Below are positions 11,559 to 33,444 of a DNA stretch of 34,114 nt, piece after piece. Below the pieces are notes generated by a model. The model was not told the DNA's origin, ran no database searches, and saw nothing but the letters and a program-made list of their open reading frames with translations. Location: contig JAAZJU010000059.1 in NCBI GenBank assembly GCA_012800195.1, positions 1-34,114 on the forward strand, given 5' to 3'. The translations under genes were made by a program, and so were the position numbers. The stretch comes from Clostridia bacterium (GTDB lineage Bacteria; Bacillota; Peptococcia; Peptococcales; BICA1-8). Numbering within the stretch: the stretch's first letter is position 1; each line of letters opens with the position of its first letter.

Positions 11559-12131
11559 TTACGCAAAAACGATTTGTCCATTGTCTATAGACTTTATAAT
11601 TGCTAAGGACTCAACTTTTACGTCATTTTCTTCAATCTTCGTTCTTCCCTTTTGAAAGCCTTTTTCAATGGCAATTCCGACTCCCACAACCTGGGCCTGG
11701 GCTTGTCGGACAATATTAATCAAACCTACTGCTGCATTTCCCATTGCTAAAAAGTCATCAATAATTAAGACCTTATCTTGAGAATCTATATATTCCTTAG
11801 ATACCCTAATGGTGTAGTTCTTATCCTTGGTAAAGGAATATACTTGGCTTTCATAAACATCATTGGATAAGTTTTTAGCCTCTAACTTTTTAGCAAATAC
11901 CACTGGTACATTTTTAAAGTATTGGGCAGTTATACAAGCTAAACCAATCCCACTAGCTTCAATGGTTAAGATTTTAGTGACCTCTTTATTTGCAAACCTG
12001 GCTTTGAATTCCTTACCCATTTCGTTTAATAAATTAACATCTATTTGATGGTTGAGAAAGCTATCTACCTTTACTATTTCACTACCAATAATTTTAGCAC
12101 TCTCATTAATTCTTTTTTTAAGCATTTCCAT
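11559..12131 (-). CDS. xpt: Xanthine phosphoribosyltransferase
   Basis: Xpt converts xanthine (and, in relatives, some guanine) plus PRPP to the nucleotide. The 190 residues match the family length. The PRPP-binding motif VLIIDDFLAMGNA lies at residues 121-133, and the EASGIGLACITAQYF segment near 58-72 is typical of this type I PRTase group. The ATG follows AGGAGG at 9 nt. It is the first gene after a guanine riboswitch and terminator, the same arrangement as B. subtilis xpt. Here it leads a nucleoside transporter instead of the pbuX permease. A hairpin separates it from nupN. Confidence 0.95.
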   Translation of the reverse strand: MEMLKKRINESAKIIGSEIVKVDSFLNHQIDVNLLNEMGKEFKARFANKEVTKILTIEASGIGLACITAQYFKNVPVVFAKKLEAKNLSNDVYESQVYSFTKDKNYTIRVSKEYIDSQDKVLIIDDFLAMGNAAVGLINIVRQAQAQVVGVGIAIEKGFQKGRTKIEENDVKVESLAIIKSIDNGQIVFA

Positions 12132-12187: not shown

Positions 12188-12240
12188 ATTTCAGAAGATA
12201 AAAGTAAAAAAGCTAACCTTAAAAAATTCTTCTGCATAAA

Positions 12241-12313
12241 CAACCCGTAGTCAGGCAATTTACGGTTGCCCGGTAGAAACATTCAGCCCATATCGCTAAA
12301 CATATACAAGTCG
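12241..12313 (-). promoter_or_regulatory. Guanine-class purine riboswitch
   Basis: The minus strand carries the conserved purine aptamer elements in order: P1 CGACTTG pairing with CGGGTTG (with wobbles), TATA in J1/2, P2 TTTAGC/GCTGAA around GATATG, J2/3 TGTTTCTACC, P3 GGCAA/TTGCC around CCGTAAA, and J3/1 TGACTACG. The C in GACTA corresponds to C74, which selects guanine/hypoxanthine-type ligands over adenine. A long antiterminator and a terminator follow, which indicates an OFF switch when guanine is plentiful. Confidence 0.95.
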
Positions 12314-12367
12314 TTCAATCACGAATATTTGTTTTTTTTTATAGCTTAATGTTCAGCTATTAACCTA

Positions 12368-25242: not shown

Positions 25243-25328
25243 ACCTCAAAAAAGACAGAAAACAATAGAGCTTTCCCATAATCTTTCCCTTCCCCTGCCC
25301 ATTACCCGTGGGTCATAACGGTGAACTT

Positions 25329-25493
25329 AGAATAAGTAGGTCTCCTGACTTAGAATCAACATCCATCTACGCCTTCCCAGAGCTCTTAACCCCAGTGGCA
25401 TTGTGTAGTAGGACTCCCCATCACAGTGGCGGAACCGCGCTGGATTTACACCAGACTTCCCGTATGTGCTTTAAAAGGCACATAACTTATTCC
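25329..25493 (-). promoter_or_regulatory. Cobalamin riboswitch
   Basis: The minus strand carries the conserved core GGGAAGTCTGGTG, then CGGTTCCGCCACTGTGATGGGGAG, the B12-box region ATGCCACTGGG...TGGGAAGGCG, and AGTCAGGAGACC. P1 is formed by GGAATAAG (25486-25493) with CTTATTCT (25329-25336). A peripheral hairpin, TATGTGC/GCACATA, lies near the 5' end. It precedes cbiD by about 190 nt with a terminator between, so adenosylcobalamin or a related form would shut the operon off. Confidence 0.96.
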
Positions 25494-25514
25494 GTTTCTT
25501 ATTAAATTGACATA

Positions 25515-25589: not shown

Positions 25590-26927
25590 CTACCCTTTGG
25601 CCTCCTTTTGTTCAGCATCAGACAGGCAAACAACCGCACTTTCCAATCTGCGGTCTTTAATCTTTTTAACCTTTATGATTAACCCATATTCCTCAAGCTC
25701 TGGTGTACTACCATCGCTTGGGATAGTTCCTAAAATTCCAAAAACTAGGCCCCCAAAAGTTTCATATTCTTCAAAAGGTAACAATACGCCAAGCTGCTCT
25801 GCTACCTCATCAAGGGGCGCTATACCCTGTATACGCCAGGTTTTTGAATCTATAGGCTCAATCAATGGGGATTTTGCAGGCATGGAAATGTCATCTTCTA
25901 GATCTCCTACCAGTTCTTCCAACAAATCATTCATGGTGATAATCCCACTCATACCACCATATTCATCTACAACGACAGCAAAATGATTTCTAGACTTTTT
26001 CATATTGCGAAACAATACATCTGCCCGAACAGTTTCTGGGACAAAACAGGCAGGTTGTACAGCATTTTCCATCACCTGATCACGAGTTTTATTTTTTAGT
26101 CTAAAATAATCCTTTGCGTTTAAAACTCCGATTATATCATCTGGGCTATCTGAACAAATGGGATAGATAGAATATCTACTTTCATTGATAGTCTGTTCCC
26201 ATTGTTCATCGGTTTCATCCAGCCACAAAACAGTAACCTCAGTACGATGAGTCATTATCTCTCCAGCGGAAGTATCATCGAATTCAAATATGTTTTGTAT
26301 CATATCCTGTTCATCAGGCAATATGGTACCTTTTTGTTTGCCCACATCTAATATCATGCGGATTTCTTCCTCTACATTTTCTTCCTCAACACTATGAGGA
26401 TCAATACCAAAAAGCCGTAAAATACCATTGGTTGATATGGTGAAAAGCCAAACCACAGGGGTAAATATTTTACTAACCACATAGATAAGGCCAGACATTC
26501 CCAGAGCAATTTGTTCTGCTTTTTTCATGGCCAACCGTTTAGGAATCAATTCGCCAAGCAGTACAGTGAAATAGGTTAATAGAATTGTAATAGTAGCCAC
26601 AGATAAAATGCTGACCATGGCTGCAGGAATATTAATACCAATATTAACAAACCACTCTACCAAACGATCAGAAAAATTCTCTGTTGCAACAGCACTACTT
26701 AAAAGATTGACTAAAGTAATGCCAATTTGAATTGTAGCTAGAAAGCCTGCAGGTTGTTCAAGTAGCTCAGTGAGACGTAAGGCACGCTTATCTCCAGCAG
26801 TAGCCAGCTTTGCCAACTTATTATCATTCATAGAGATAACAGCAATTTCCGCACAAGCAAAAACTGCATTAAGACCTATAAATATAAGCTGAAGCAAAAA
26901 TAACCATATCAAAGGACTCGTATCCAA
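25590..26927 (-). CDS. HlyC/CorC-family membrane protein (DUF21, CBS pair, CorC_HlyC)
   Basis: This integral membrane protein of 445 residues belongs to the CorC/CNNM-like group, linked in several bacteria to Mg2+ or Co2+ efflux. The DUF21 transmembrane domain spans about residues 1-190 (LNAVFACAEIAVISMN, LVNLLSSAVATE, ELIPKRLAMKKAE). Then come a CBS pair (about 200-330, with MTHRTEVTVLWLDE and FAVVVDEYGGMSGIITMNDLLEELVGDLEDD) and a C-terminal CorC_HlyC domain (about 345-430). The start is a TTG with GGGAGG 8-9 nt upstream. The gene follows a 260-nt leader with its own promoter, a terminator and alternative pairings, so it is probably regulated by transcription attenuation. The older name hemolysin is not supported by function. 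Confidence 0.9.
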   Translation of the reverse strand: MDTSPLIWLFLLQLIFIGLNAVFACAEIAVISMNDNKLAKLATAGDKRALRLTELLEQPAGFLATIQIGITLVNLLSSAVATENFSDRLVEWFVNIGINIPAAMVSILSVATITILLTYFTVLLGELIPKRLAMKKAEQIALGMSGLIYVVSKIFTPVVWLFTISTNGILRLFGIDPHSVEEENVEEEIRMILDVGKQKGTILPDEQDMIQNIFEFDDTSAGEIMTHRTEVTVLWLDETDEQWEQTINESRYSIYPICSDSPDDIIGVLNAKDYFRLKNKTRDQVMENAVQPACFVPETVRADVLFRNMKKSRNHFAVVVDEYGGMSGIITMNDLLEELVGDLEDDISMPAKSPLIEPIDSKTWRIQGIAPLDEVAEQLGVLLPFEEYETFGGLVFGILGTIPSDGSTPELEEYGLIIKVKKIKDRRLESAVVCLSDAEQKEAKG

Positions 26928-27188
26928 GATTTTATCCTCCCAAATATATCTTTAAATTCTAGTTTTTTTGCAACTTTTGCGATAGGTTATATGGTGTTTA
27001 TTATAATAAAAAAACACACAACAAAAAGGACAACATTAAATTGCCCTCTGCTCTGTGTTTGAAATATTTTAACGCTTGTCCTGATCTCCTAAAAATAGTT
27101 AATTCCGTGTATTGTCTGTATCGTCGGTTAGGAGGCTCCGAAGCAGAAGCGTAAGATTCCTTCACTGCTTGTACACCTATCCTTTCAA
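26928..27188 (-). promoter_or_regulatory. Structured leader of the HlyC/CorC gene, unassigned riboswitch-like element
   Basis: The transcript from the promoter at 27195-27223 would carry about 260 nt before the TTG start. Pairings seen are GGATAGG/CCTAACC (27176-27182 with 27126-27132, one mismatch), enclosing AAGCAG..AAG/CTTCTGCTT. The competing CTCCTAA/TTAGGAG is perfect (27128-27134 with 27086-27092), and AGGACAA/TTGTCCT is perfect (27076-27082 with 27027-27033). The last of these invades the terminator at 27008-27060. This is the architecture of a switch. I looked for M-box, yybP-ykoY and NiCo-type cores and found no convincing match. The remaining stretch holds no ORF. Confidence 0.6.
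27008..27060 (-). terminator. Leader terminator upstream of the HlyC/CorC gene
   Basis: On the minus strand AAACACAGAGCAGAGGGCAA folds onto TTGTCCTTTTTGTTGTGTGTTT as a long imperfect stem (outer AAACACA/TGTGTTT, inner GGCAA/TTGTC), followed by seven T. It lies about 80 nt before the start codon, so it would attenuate transcription into the gene unless disrupted. Confidence 0.75.
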
Positions 27189-27194
27189 TGATTT

Positions 27195-27223
27195 AATATA
27201 ATATACTCCATCACACTTGTCAA
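27195..27223 (-). promoter_or_regulatory. Promoter of the HlyC/CorC transcription unit
   Basis: TTGACA (27218-27223), a 17-nt spacer and TATATT (27195-27200) on the minus strand form a near-consensus sigma-A promoter, starting transcription near 27188. It begins 25 bp after the stop of the DUF4125 gene. Confidence 0.75.
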
Positions 27224-28097: not shown

Positions 28098-28430
28098 TCA
28101 GTCTGAGAATGTAATCTCAACAATATCCTCAAAGGGTATTTCCATATTCACTATCCGTAGTACACGGTTGACCTTATCAAACAAGGTAACAGTACCAGTA
28201 GTCTGGATATACTCACCATCTTGAAAATAGGTGATAGTTATAACCATGCCCTTTTGGAGTAATTGTATCTTCTGGTTAAGCTCCATCGCCATTTCTTCTG
28301 ATAATATTATTCTAGGAACAATAACTTTTTCCTTTTTTTCTAGAGCCTCCCTAAGTCCCTGAACGGCAGCGAAAGGCATAAACTGCTTTGCTCGCTCAGG
28401 GATAGGCATCTTTTTCCTTGTTCTATTCAC
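28098..28430 (-). CDS. YolD-like protein, partner of the Y-family polymerase
   Basis: This is a YolD-like family protein of 111 residues. The defining motif is PERAKQFMPFAAVQGLREALEKKE near the N-terminus, followed by a small beta-rich C-terminal domain (ITITYFQDGEYIQTTGTVTLFDKVNRVLRI). YolD proteins are commonly encoded next to UvrX/UmuC-type polymerases on phages and plasmids and have been proposed to act like UmuD. The molecular role is not firmly established. The track start at 28538 lies inside polY in another frame. The GTG at 28430, 11 nt after GGAGG and overlapping the polY stop by 8 bp, is the likely start. Confidence 0.85.
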   Translation of the reverse strand: MNRTRKKMPIPERAKQFMPFAAVQGLREALEKKEKVIVPRIILSEEMAMELNQKIQLLQKGMVITITYFQDGEYIQTTGTVTLFDKVNRVLRIVNMEIPFEDIVEITFSD

Positions 28431-29700
28431 CGCTTTTATGACCTCCAATCTGTCTGTTGCGTTCGATGGTAGTAGCAGCTTCTTCAAGGTCCATAGCCTT
28501 GATAATTGTATTTTTTCCGTATTTCTTTTTAACATCAAGTACGGCTTTTTGTATTTTGTAATTGCGCTCTAGATCTTCACCCACATTGTCAAACAGACTA
28601 AGCTGCTGGCTTTGGGCCTCTGTTGGAACGACTTTATTGCAGGTGATGTTCACCCGACGAATTGGTTTATTGCGGTCAACAACCCGTTCGTACAGACTGA
28701 CAACAGCTGGAATTATTATACTATTGGCATTAGTCTGCGTTCCAAAGGATATAGTACCTTTAGCTGGTTTCGCTTTCAGAACATTAGAATATCCCACATA
28801 GATGGTAACCGACCCTGTGACAAGATCTTTATCCACCAAATCAAGGCACATTAAATCCATCATCTCGCGGATTATCAGCCGGCCTTCTTCAAAGGAATAA
28901 TCCCGCATGAGAACTTGACCGCTGGTTAGACTGTTGTTCTTAGGTTTATAAGCTTTGATATCTGCTATGGTTGTCGGTTCCCGCCCCCAAGCGTGATCAA
29001 TAAGTAGCTCTGCATCGATGCCAAATTCTTTATACAACATCTCTTCATTGGCCTGAGCTACCTGTCCCATGGTATGGATGCCAAGCTTTTCAAGTCGCGT
29101 GGCAATACCAGTACCCACACGCCAGAAATCCGTGATGGGGCGATGTTCCCAAAGTGTCCGTCGATAGCTTTCCTCATCCAGGTAGCCGATAAAGTCTGGG
29201 CTGTGTTTCGCGGTAATATCCAGCGCAATTTTTGCAAGGTACAGATTTGTACCAATACCACAAGTGGCAGGAACACCAACATTGTTCATAATCTCCGCCA
29301 TAAGCTTTATAGCCATTTCCTTAGCCGTCAATCCATAAATGGGAAGATAAGAGGTAATATCTAGAAATGCCTCATCAATGGAATATACATGGATGTCATC
29401 TTTAGAGATATATTTGAGATAAATCCCGTATATCTCGGCAGCATAGTCAATGTATTTCTGCATTCTAGGAGGAGCCATAATGTATTCGATATTCTTCGGT
29501 ATTTCAAACACACGACAACGATTACGAATGCCCAGGGACTTCATGGCAGGAGTAATTGCGAGACAAATAGTTTTATCTGAGCGTTCTGGATCTGCAACCA
29601 CCAGGTTAGTAGTCATGGGGTCCAACCCACGCTCTACACATTCTACGGAAGCATAAAAGGATTTTAGGTCAATACAGAGATAGATGTGTTGCTTTGCCAT
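28423..29700 (-). CDS. Y-family DNA polymerase (UvrX/UmuC-like, YqjW type)
   Basis: This is a translesion DNA polymerase of 425 residues from the ATG at 29700, supported by GGAGGGG five to six bases upstream; the track ORF start at 29757 is rejected. Catalytic residues are Asp11 (LCIDLKSFYASVE) and Asp109-Glu110 (YSIDEAFLDIT). The little-finger domain is followed by QQLSLFDN, a canonical sliding-clamp-binding motif. The long N-terminal pattern VADPERSDKTICLAITPAMKSLGI is typical of the Firmicutes UvrX/YqjW branch often carried by mobile elements. It is fused by overlap to a YolD-like gene. I see no Gram-positive LexA/DinR box in the 77 bp before it, so it may be read from guaA. Confidence 0.9.
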   Translation of the reverse strand: MAKQHIYLCIDLKSFYASVECVERGLDPMTTNLVVADPERSDKTICLAITPAMKSLGIRNRCRVFEIPKNIEYIMAPPRMQKYIDYAAEIYGIYLKYISKDDIHVYSIDEAFLDITSYLPIYGLTAKEMAIKLMAEIMNNVGVPATCGIGTNLYLAKIALDITAKHSPDFIGYLDEESYRRTLWEHRPITDFWRVGTGIATRLEKLGIHTMGQVAQANEEMLYKEFGIDAELLIDHAWGREPTTIADIKAYKPKNNSLTSGQVLMRDYSFEEGRLIIREMMDLMCLDLVDKDLVTGSVTIYVGYSNVLKAKPAKGTISFGTQTNANSIIIPAVVSLYERVVDRNKPIRRVNITCNKVVPTEAQSQQLSLFDNVGEDLERNYKIQKAVLDVKKKYGKNTIIKAMDLEEAATTIERNRQIGGHKSGE

Positions 29701-29777
29701 TTTTTCCCCTCCTGACCCTTGAGTTTCCAAAAAACTCCTTCCCCTTGAAACAGACATGGGGTACTACTTAAAATGGG

Positions 29778-32058: not shown

Positions 32059-33444
32059 ATGTTTAAAACAGACTTGTTTAAAAACTCTAGACAGCTTGTT
32101 CTAATAATCTTTGGATTGATCTATATTCTCTCGGCCTTTATCTATAATATTTTTTTTCTCCCCTTAACAGCATTCTTCATAGTGATTATTCTTATTCAAT
32201 CTTTTCCAGTAGCAAATAAATCTAATCGTAATATCTCCCTAGTTCTTTTAATTATAGGCAGTGCTATGCTTCTTTACTTTAATGCGGACCTTGAACATTG
32301 GGTTAGTGCCCTAGGCTCAAATACCGGTCTAGTGGCTCTATTTATTTCCTTACCTTTCTTAAGTTTTCCCCTAAAATATGAAAATTACCAAAGTTCCCTT
32401 GAAAAATTTTCTCTAAAATATATTAAAAATACCGTTACTTTAGCTAACTTTTCAGCCCTATTGACATTTTTCTTAGCCTCCCTTTTAAATCTAGGGGCAA
32501 TGCAAGTAGTTTATAATTTGCTTTACCAGAAAAAAGCAAGTTTAGATTATGAACGCATTCTTTTCCGTTCTATGTTAAGAGGTAACCTGGCGGCTCTTTT
32601 TTGGTCTCCTAACTATGTTGCAGTAGCTGTAATTATTCATTCCTTAGATATACCCTGGATTAGCATCGTACCCCTTGGATTATCAATATCAATACTTATC
32701 CTCCTTAGTAATTGGTTATTAACTACAATAACAACCATGAAAAAAGAAAATGACTTGGTCAGCGAATTGGAAAAGGCAGTTTTACTAGACCTTACCTCCC
32801 AAGATAAGAAAAATCTTTGGAAGCTAGTAGGTATCTTTAGCCTTTTGATTTCTTTTGTACTTCTTTTAAATATTTTTACTGATTTAAATATTTTAGTGAT
32901 TGTACCTATTGTGGCAATTATTTACCCTCTTGGTCTGGCCATAGTACAAGGGAAGATGGCTATCTATCAAAATGAATTGAAAAATTATTATCAGGTTGGC
33001 CTATTAGATAAAAAAGATGAAATCATTATCTTTGCAGCTGCAGGTTTTTTCGGTAAAGCACTAGAGATAACTGGGATAGGAAAATTAATCCCCACTCTTC
33101 TCCATCTGAATACAATTACTATTCCCTTTTTGGCAATTTTATTAATCATTTGCATCATAGTTCTCTTAGCAGTACTAGGGGTTCACCCTGTGATAACCTG
33201 CGCTACCTTTGCTACTACGGTTAGTGCTCAAACCTTAGGTTTAACAGTGGAGGGTTACGCCATGGTCCTTTTGGCCTCCTTTGGCCTAGCTGTTATGACT
33301 TCACCCTTTTCCGGCACTGCCTTAGTGATGTCTGGTATCTGTAAATATAGTCCTTGGCAAATGGGTCCCCTTTTAAATTCCCGCTATGCCCTAGGTATGG
33401 GAATTATCCTGGCCCTATTCATCCCCTTTATCGGGGGAATCTAA
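32059..33444 (+). CDS. Polytopic membrane protein, ion-transporter-superfamily-like permease
   Basis: I do not recognise the exact family. The 461 residues contain about eleven to twelve hydrophobic segments with short loops. A larger cytoplasmic-looking loop lies in the centre (MKKENDLVSELEKAVLLDLTSQDKKN, near residue 227), giving two halves of roughly equal size. The second half has LGVHPVITCATFATTVSAQ and SPFSGTALVMSG, polar motifs inside membrane segments like the substrate-binding hairpins of anion permeases in the ion transporter superfamily. The first half has WSPNYVAVAV, also polar within the membrane. The ribosome site AGAGG is weak and distant (12 nt). It ends at a bidirectional terminator facing another anion permease. 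The substrate is unknown. Confidence 0.75.
   Translation: MFKTDLFKNSRQLVLIIFGLIYILSAFIYNIFFLPLTAFFIVIILIQSFPVANKSNRNISLVLLIIGSAMLLYFNADLEHWVSALGSNTGLVALFISLPFLSFPLKYENYQSSLEKFSLKYIKNTVTLANFSALLTFFLASLLNLGAMQVVYNLLYQKKASLDYERILFRSMLRGNLAALFWSPNYVAVAVIIHSLDIPWISIVPLGLSISILILLSNWLLTTITTMKKENDLVSELEKAVLLDLTSQDKKNLWKLVGIFSLLISFVLLLNIFTDLNILVIVPIVAIIYPLGLAIVQGKMAIYQNELKNYYQVGLLDKKDEIIIFAAAGFFGKALEITGIGKLIPTLLHLNTITIPFLAILLIICIIVLLAVLGVHPVITCATFATTVSAQTLGLTVEGYAMVLLASFGLAVMTSPFSGTALVMSGICKYSPWQMGPLLNSRYALGMGIILALFIPFIGGI

Follow-up and report, generated by a model that had tools for sequence, protein, structure and literature searches.

Upstream of a gene for a CNNM-family cation exporter, in a stretch of 34,114 nucleotides of DNA from a Clostridia bacterium (the window), the conserved element of the leader is, as judged by sequence comparison, a translated acidic leader peptide whose open reading frame (ORF) runs into a terminator. 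The comparison lends good support to an attenuator architecture, with an upstream promoter, an intrinsic terminator before the gene and no later promoter, together with a conserved coding ORF that has a ribosome-binding site and would allow a ribosome to touch the terminator region. We consider it probable that the leader is a ribosome-mediated attenuator, in which Mg2+ (or a polyamine) would be sensed by ribosome drop-off like that in MgtL and the exporter would be on when the cation is high. Within this proposal we infer the dependence of termination on translation, Mg2+ or a polyamine as the signal, and the on-when-high sign of the response.

The leader and its exporter gene

A first-pass annotation of the window had suggested a possible undescribed riboswitch or attenuator at this locus, consisting of a near-consensus promoter and a leader of about 260 nt with a strong terminator, upstream of a gene for a HlyC/CorC-type protein. 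These elements were all recovered on the minus strand (Table 1). The promoter agrees with the consensus at 11 of 12 positions, and transcription is expected to start near 27188. The leader is ~260 nt long and stops at the TTG with which the CNNM gene begins, and its terminator is of the intrinsic type, with seven T and −21.4 kcal/mol. No credible promoter was found in the window between the terminator and the GGGAGG of the CNNM gene. CNNM, CBS and CorC_HlyC domains were found in the 445-aa product, to which CorC/'hemolysin' CNNM proteins are the closest among solved structures. Its best NCBIfam model, below the model cut-off, is the polyamine exporter PaeA, and a polyamine is therefore a possible substrate.

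Table 1 Predicted features of the leader and the CNNM gene in the window
Feature	Positions	Strand	Details
Sigma-70 type promoter	27195..27223	−	TTGACA 27223-27218, 17-nt spacer, TATATT 27200-27195
Ribosome-binding site of leader ORF, AAAGGATAGGTG	27174..27185	−	From sequence; same place in homologues
Leader ORF	27001..27165	−	GTG start 27165, TAA 27003-27001, 54 aa, terminator inside
Codons 2-13 of leader ORF	27127..27162	−	Counterpart of the Asp/Glu/Ser/Pro-rich segment of homologues
Intrinsic terminator hairpin within leader ORF	27013..27059	−	From sequence, folding and covariation
T7 tract of terminator	27008..27014	−	Leader stop TAA 27003-27001 just past the tract
Shine-Dalgarno sequence GGGAGG of CNNM gene	26936..26941	−	From sequence
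CNNM/CorC-HlyC family cation (Mg2+ or polyamine) exporter gene	25590..26927	−	445 aa, TTG start

The leader ORF begins ~30 nt past the −10 box, and the first third of its 54 codons is the region that the first-pass annotation, overlooking the ORF, had called aptamer-like. The encoded peptide (MKESYASASEPPNRRYRQYTELTIFRRSGQALKYFKHRAEGNLMLSFLLCVFLL) was matched by a profile of homologous peptides at E = 2e-20, as a single copy in the window's genome. The same profile found one copy per genome in five genomes searched, each at a CNNM locus. Differences among the N-terminal codons are synonymous in 24% of cases in frame vs 10% and 7% off frame, and third codon positions are the most variable in this region; the coding signal is modest against permuted columns, 25 of 1000 permutations reaching the same excess.

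Residues 2-13 of the window's peptide (KESYASASEPPN) contain only two acidic residues, plus EPP. Peptides of its close group include MSDSSDSDSEPPSPQ...HIAEGNYMLSFLLCVFLLL and MDDSSGPEAEPPNRR...HIAEGNLVLSLFLCVFLLR, and the window's peptide is the least acidic among them (MKESYASASEPPN), most acidic residues of its relatives being lost. Because it has fewer acidic residues than its closest relatives, the Mg2+ response of the window's leader may be weak or lost. In the window (27001-27014) and its group (L005, L006, L008-L012, L014), the leader stop codon lies past the T-tract; terminated transcripts would therefore be non-stop messages and might recruit tmRNA.

RNA structure of the leader

The M-box (Rfam RF00380 'Magnesium'), a Mg2+-related leader of Firmicutes, was absent from the leader and from the window's genome. 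Rfam covariance models gave no match to the window's leader at gathering score and nothing credible up to E = 10, and the upstream regions of 17 homologous loci likewise matched no Rfam family, so no known class was found. The word 'undescribed' in the first-pass annotation also appears right, since the open-access literature that we searched holds no description of such leaders. The folded 5' domain that it saw is not beyond chance: for the whole leader, the folding z is −1.42 and 23 of 200 shuffles fold equally well. Furthermore, the transcript reaches the leader ORF after only ~25 nt, which leaves no room for an aptamer outside the coding sequence.

Three mutually exclusive pairings had been proposed as the switch. 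They can be drawn in the window, GGATAGG/CCTAACC with an A.A mismatch, CTCCTAA/TTAGGAG and AGGACAA/TTGTCCT perfectly, but they do not behave as functional elements. In 19 homologous leaders, 43, 56 and 44% of cells are paired for the three, no different from shuffles, and neither pairing nor covariation rises above shuffled or slid controls; on these homologues we reject the pairings as a switch. AGGACAA itself is not conserved among the homologous leaders. The terminator, by contrast, keeps 87% of its pairs in the 19 aligned leaders and has changes on both sides at 8 of its 19 pairs. Its covariation exceeds all 500 shuffles, and RNAalifold predicts the terminator hairpin as the sole structure of the alignment. 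An antiterminator hidden elsewhere in the leaders was ruled out by an RNA duplex test of the mid-leader against either arm in 68 leaders (mean z of 0.06 ± 0.12 and −0.03). The attenuator half of the 'riboswitch or attenuator' proposal stands, whereas the riboswitch half finds neither an Rfam match, nor a conserved fold other than the terminator, nor covarying helices.

A family of leaders upstream of CNNM genes

We compared the window's leader with the sequence upstream of 76 CNNM genes in other genomes, the best matches having 82-83% protein identity, and found homologous leaders there. Leaders at CNNM genes of other Clostridia have a plan in common, in which a near-consensus promoter is followed by a short ORF that has an acidic, Ser/Pro-containing start and reaches a terminator hairpin, without a second promoter or an antiterminator. 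The leader peptides begin with, for example, MSDSSDSDSEPP, MDDSPLPEP, MDSDECD, MDDSPDPERT or MDDGESCVDN, and elsewhere with MDNADSSDAD, MDDDIGDEGSS, MDDNPEDIRS or MEEGDSANGNQPP. The leader sequences share little across lineages, and what they have in common is this N-terminal character.

Uniform criteria were used to scan for such leaders, namely a terminator and an ORF preceded by a Shine-Dalgarno (SD) sequence and running into the hairpin, with acidity defined as at least three D/E in residues 2-13 (at least two in the 120-gene sample described below). Other terminators and promoters within the same CNNM loci served as controls. An ORF that has three or more D/E and runs into the hairpin was found at 38 of 52 CNNM-leader terminators vs 12 of 368 other terminators, although the leaders are related by descent and these and the following counts are not independent events. 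One of the 12 positive controls is itself a CNNM leader lying further upstream. When leaders were selected by promoter and SD-preceded ORF only, 67 of 83 (in 197 CNNM loci) carried at least three acidic residues; the same signature occurred at 4 of 267 other promoters.

Because loci chosen by their similarity to the query could be biased, we also sampled 120 CNNM genes, with genomes spread evenly over the class that contains Ruminiclostridium. A terminator was present at 39 of them, with an ORF running into it at 29 of these and at least two D/E in 25. About 3 of the 25 are doubtful by eye, and a promoter-based scan adds ~6. The signature was thus detected in roughly a quarter of the sampled genes, and about three quarters are without it.

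Residues 2-13, pooled over 62 leaders, consist of 20% D, 17% S, 12% P and 9% E, compared with 1.8, 6.0, 2.5 and 2.6% for D, S, P and E after residue 16; acidity was a selection criterion for these leaders, whereas Ser and Pro were not. A Pro beside an acidic residue, or PP, lies near the start in 43 of 74 peptides. The start codon is GTG or TTG in 33 of 74 leader ORFs, and weak initiation may therefore belong to the design.

The arrangement around the ORF is consistent. A promoter with at least 10 of 12 consensus positions lies just upstream of the ORF in 56 of the 62 leaders, and the start codon is typically 25-39 nt past the −10 box, so that ~25 nt of the RNA are untranslated. Only one leader (1/62) has such a promoter after the terminator and before the CNNM gene, which rules out a second promoter there as a general feature. 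Since promoters precede the ORF and not the gene, the CNNM gene would depend on read-through. In 68 leaders with a hairpin, the stop codon falls in the 5' arm (19), the loop (4), the 3' arm (9) or beyond the hairpin (30), or else up to 15 nt before it (5), and it is clearly short of the hairpin in one. The stop codon therefore lies in, beyond or at most 15 nt from the 5' arm in 67 of 68 leaders, the terminator not being selected for. Given the size of the ribosome footprint, a ribosome finishing the leader would be positioned at the hairpin base or beyond it.

Few more members came from a peptide profile in which the terminator-coded end predominated, and searching via the CNNM genes worked better. 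Two Lachnospiraceae leaders, L055 and L057 (MDEGDGENYPQTNQFINIKGHSLCLRE, MEAGAGDSNPKGKQFTYLKGHSLCLRE), have a common end and no clear overlap with a terminator; they are possibly a variant without the usual hairpin.

Proposed mechanism

In the attenuator that we propose, transcription would start ~25 nt upstream of the leader ORF, whose acidic, Ser/Pro-rich start is of the type that causes intrinsic ribosome destabilization (IRD) in MgtL. When Mg2+ (or a polyamine) is ample, the ribosome would survive the acidic stretch and get to the 5' arm of the hairpin, which then could not fold, and RNA polymerase would read into the exporter gene. Under cation scarcity, the ribosome would be lost within the first dozen codons, the terminator would fold, and no exporter would be made.

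Acidic or Pro residues within the first ~30 amino acids cause ribosome drop-off, as at EPDP of MgtL at low Mg2+ (PMC11282234). Such residues are found at these positions in the family of 62 leaders, the window's member being a weak case. Salmonella corC and mgpA are induced by high Mg2+ (PMC12421838), an IRD sequence has been reported in E. coli CorC (PMC12421838), and S. aureus requires the CNNM protein MpfA for growth at high Mg2+ (PMC6711546). A polyamine is a possible co-signal, because polyamines are able to substitute for Mg2+ (PMC12421838). The model requires a ribosome on the hairpin when RNA polymerase arrives there. In B. subtilis, RNA polymerase for the most part runs ahead of the ribosome (PMC7858274), and the model must therefore assume pausing or closer coupling.

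How Gram-positive bacteria control their Mg2+ exporters is for the most part unexplained, and to our knowledge ribosome-destabilizing Mg2+ sensors come from enterobacteria only. We lean slightly towards the broader proposal that a widespread class of Clostridial leader peptides gauges free Mg2+ or polyamine by IRD and turns on a cation exporter at high levels, with the ribosome acting as the antiterminator over a terminator that is part of the coding sequence, with no RNA structure in competition, and the logic of MgtL inverted. If so, this would be a second, apparently independent cation gauge based on ribosome drop-off, of opposite sign and with a simpler mechanism, and the sequence signature would predict which Clostridia use such leaders. 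It would also imply that ribosomes in these bacteria stay near enough to RNA polymerase to block a terminator.

Comparison with known leader peptides

MgtL, the leader of mgtA in E. coli and Salmonella, resembles the CNNM leaders in the acidic/Pro start of its ORF, in preceding a cation transport gene (for Mg2+ in mgtA, putatively for Mg2+ or a polyamine in the CNNM case) and in drop-off as the proposed sensor (PMC11282234). At low Mg2+ the ribosome falls off MgtL at EPDP and mgtA is transcribed (PMC11282234). However, MgtL controls an importer that is on at low Mg2+, and it uses a Rho-dependent terminator and an alternative RNA structure. The CNNM leaders precede an exporter, have an intrinsic terminator in or at the end of the ORF, and are expected to be on at high cation. 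With this terminator and no alternative structures found, they fall outside the MgtL family proper.

The closest architectural precedent is BmrB of bmrCD in B. subtilis, a Gram-positive leader ORF with an intrinsic terminator in its coding region (PMC4191407). BmrB differs in being induced by antibiotics, in its predicted antiterminators and in having no reported acidic N-terminus, and impaired translation switches bmrCD on (PMC4191407). The CNNM leaders share the terminator within the ORF but not the competing antiterminator. CorC (YbeX) and YoaL, the leader of mgpA/yoaE, are alike in that CorC-family genes go up at high Mg2+, with an IRD sequence or a leader peptide as the proposed cause (PMC12421838). 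However, the IRD sequence lies within corC itself, YoaL overlaps mgpA and acts on translation, and the description of either system includes no terminator within a leader ORF. The mgtQ ORF of Salmonella mgtCBRU is likewise a short Asp/Glu ORF that destabilizes ribosomes and controls a Mg2+ transporter, but it has 8 codons and works at the translational level by freeing the ribosome-binding site of an importer gene (PMC8092293).

Alternative explanations

The same anatomy might serve another signal, such as EF-P- or ABC-F-dependent stalling at acidic/PP motifs, ribosome-targeting drugs, pH or general translation capacity. Acidic and Pro-containing motifs are also EttA-dependent (PMC11282234), Firmicutes have leader-peptide attenuators for antibiotics (PMC4191407, PMC6310831), and the Pro-acidic or PP motifs near the start of many leader peptides would suit such stalling. 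We regard this as unlikely, since the gene under control encodes a cation exporter throughout and the shared property is acidity, not PP alone. We give still less weight to the opposite sign, in which poor translation at low Mg2+ would favour read-through. BmrB, with its terminator inside the leader ORF, is on under impaired translation (PMC4191407), low Mg2+ leads to mgtA expression through MgtL (PMC11282234), and in the window and L005 an AGGACAA could pair with TTGTCCT. However, this sign could not be achieved without an antiterminator or a Rho site; the 68 leaders have no antiterminator tendency, the AGGACAA is not conserved, and the exporter would come on under cation scarcity.

If the ORF were a small gene that makes a product of its own, has its own terminator and plays no part in controlling CNNM expression, this would explain the conserved coding signal and the hydrophobic, membrane-like C-terminus in the window's group. 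We consider this reading very improbable, because a promoter for the CNNM gene past the terminator is so rare (1/62) and because the stop lies past the hairpin in 30 of 68 leaders, so that many terminated transcripts would have no stop codon. The hydrophobic end is the terminator sequence in translation and is missing in other lineages, which rejects a stand-alone membrane peptide. We give almost no credence to the riboswitch with a leader aptamer of the first-pass annotation. A terminator-controlled leader upstream of a metal-transport gene and drawable exclusive pairings are in its favour, but Rfam gave no match, the terminator is the only conserved structure, the proposed helices equal their controls, and the region is coding.

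Distribution of the leader

The window-type leader was found in Ruminiclostridium, a Syntrophomonas-labelled MAG, Thermoclostridium and Massiliimalia. Among 45 relatives from the window's GTDB class we found none that was convincing and one weak match, and a DNA search among relatives of the window's genome gave short matches only, probably due to chance. With no convincing case among these 45 relatives and the leader present in other Clostridia, acquisition of the window's cassette is a possibility. Horizontal transfer or a binning error is suggested by the CNNM protein, which has 82-83% identity to relatives from Clostridia that do not belong to the class of this genome. A second CNNM gene in the window's genome has a coding upstream region without such a leader. 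In a phylum-wide sample, a related type (MDEDIGDEG, MEDSFGEEG) occurred at 2 of the 29 best-matching CNNM loci. Leaders of the family are present in Ruminiclostridium sufflavum (L005) and Thermoclostridium caenicola (L015), and strains in culture that carry one include R. sufflavum DSM 19573 and Sporobacter termitidis DSM 10068.

The CNNM proteins themselves, in the window (26927-26880, minus strand) and at other loci, often begin with MDDNPLLW or MDTSPLIW, like the N-terminus of the leader. This start could be a second ribosome-destabilizing one, like that reported for CorC of E. coli, or the leader could have arisen from it by duplication.

Other features of the window

Directly downstream of the CNNM gene, a cobalamin cluster led by cbiD is preceded by a Cobalamin riboswitch (25318-25505, minus strand, 98.6 bits). 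A Purine riboswitch aptamer (12228-12329, minus strand, 81.7 bits) lies before a 190-aa ORF (11559-12131). A 461-aa ORF (32059-33444, plus strand) matched no Pfam or NCBIfam model. A YolD-like ORF and the end of a Y-family DNA polymerase ORF overlap on the minus strand (28098-28538 and 28423-29757), and the true YolD start is probably further in.
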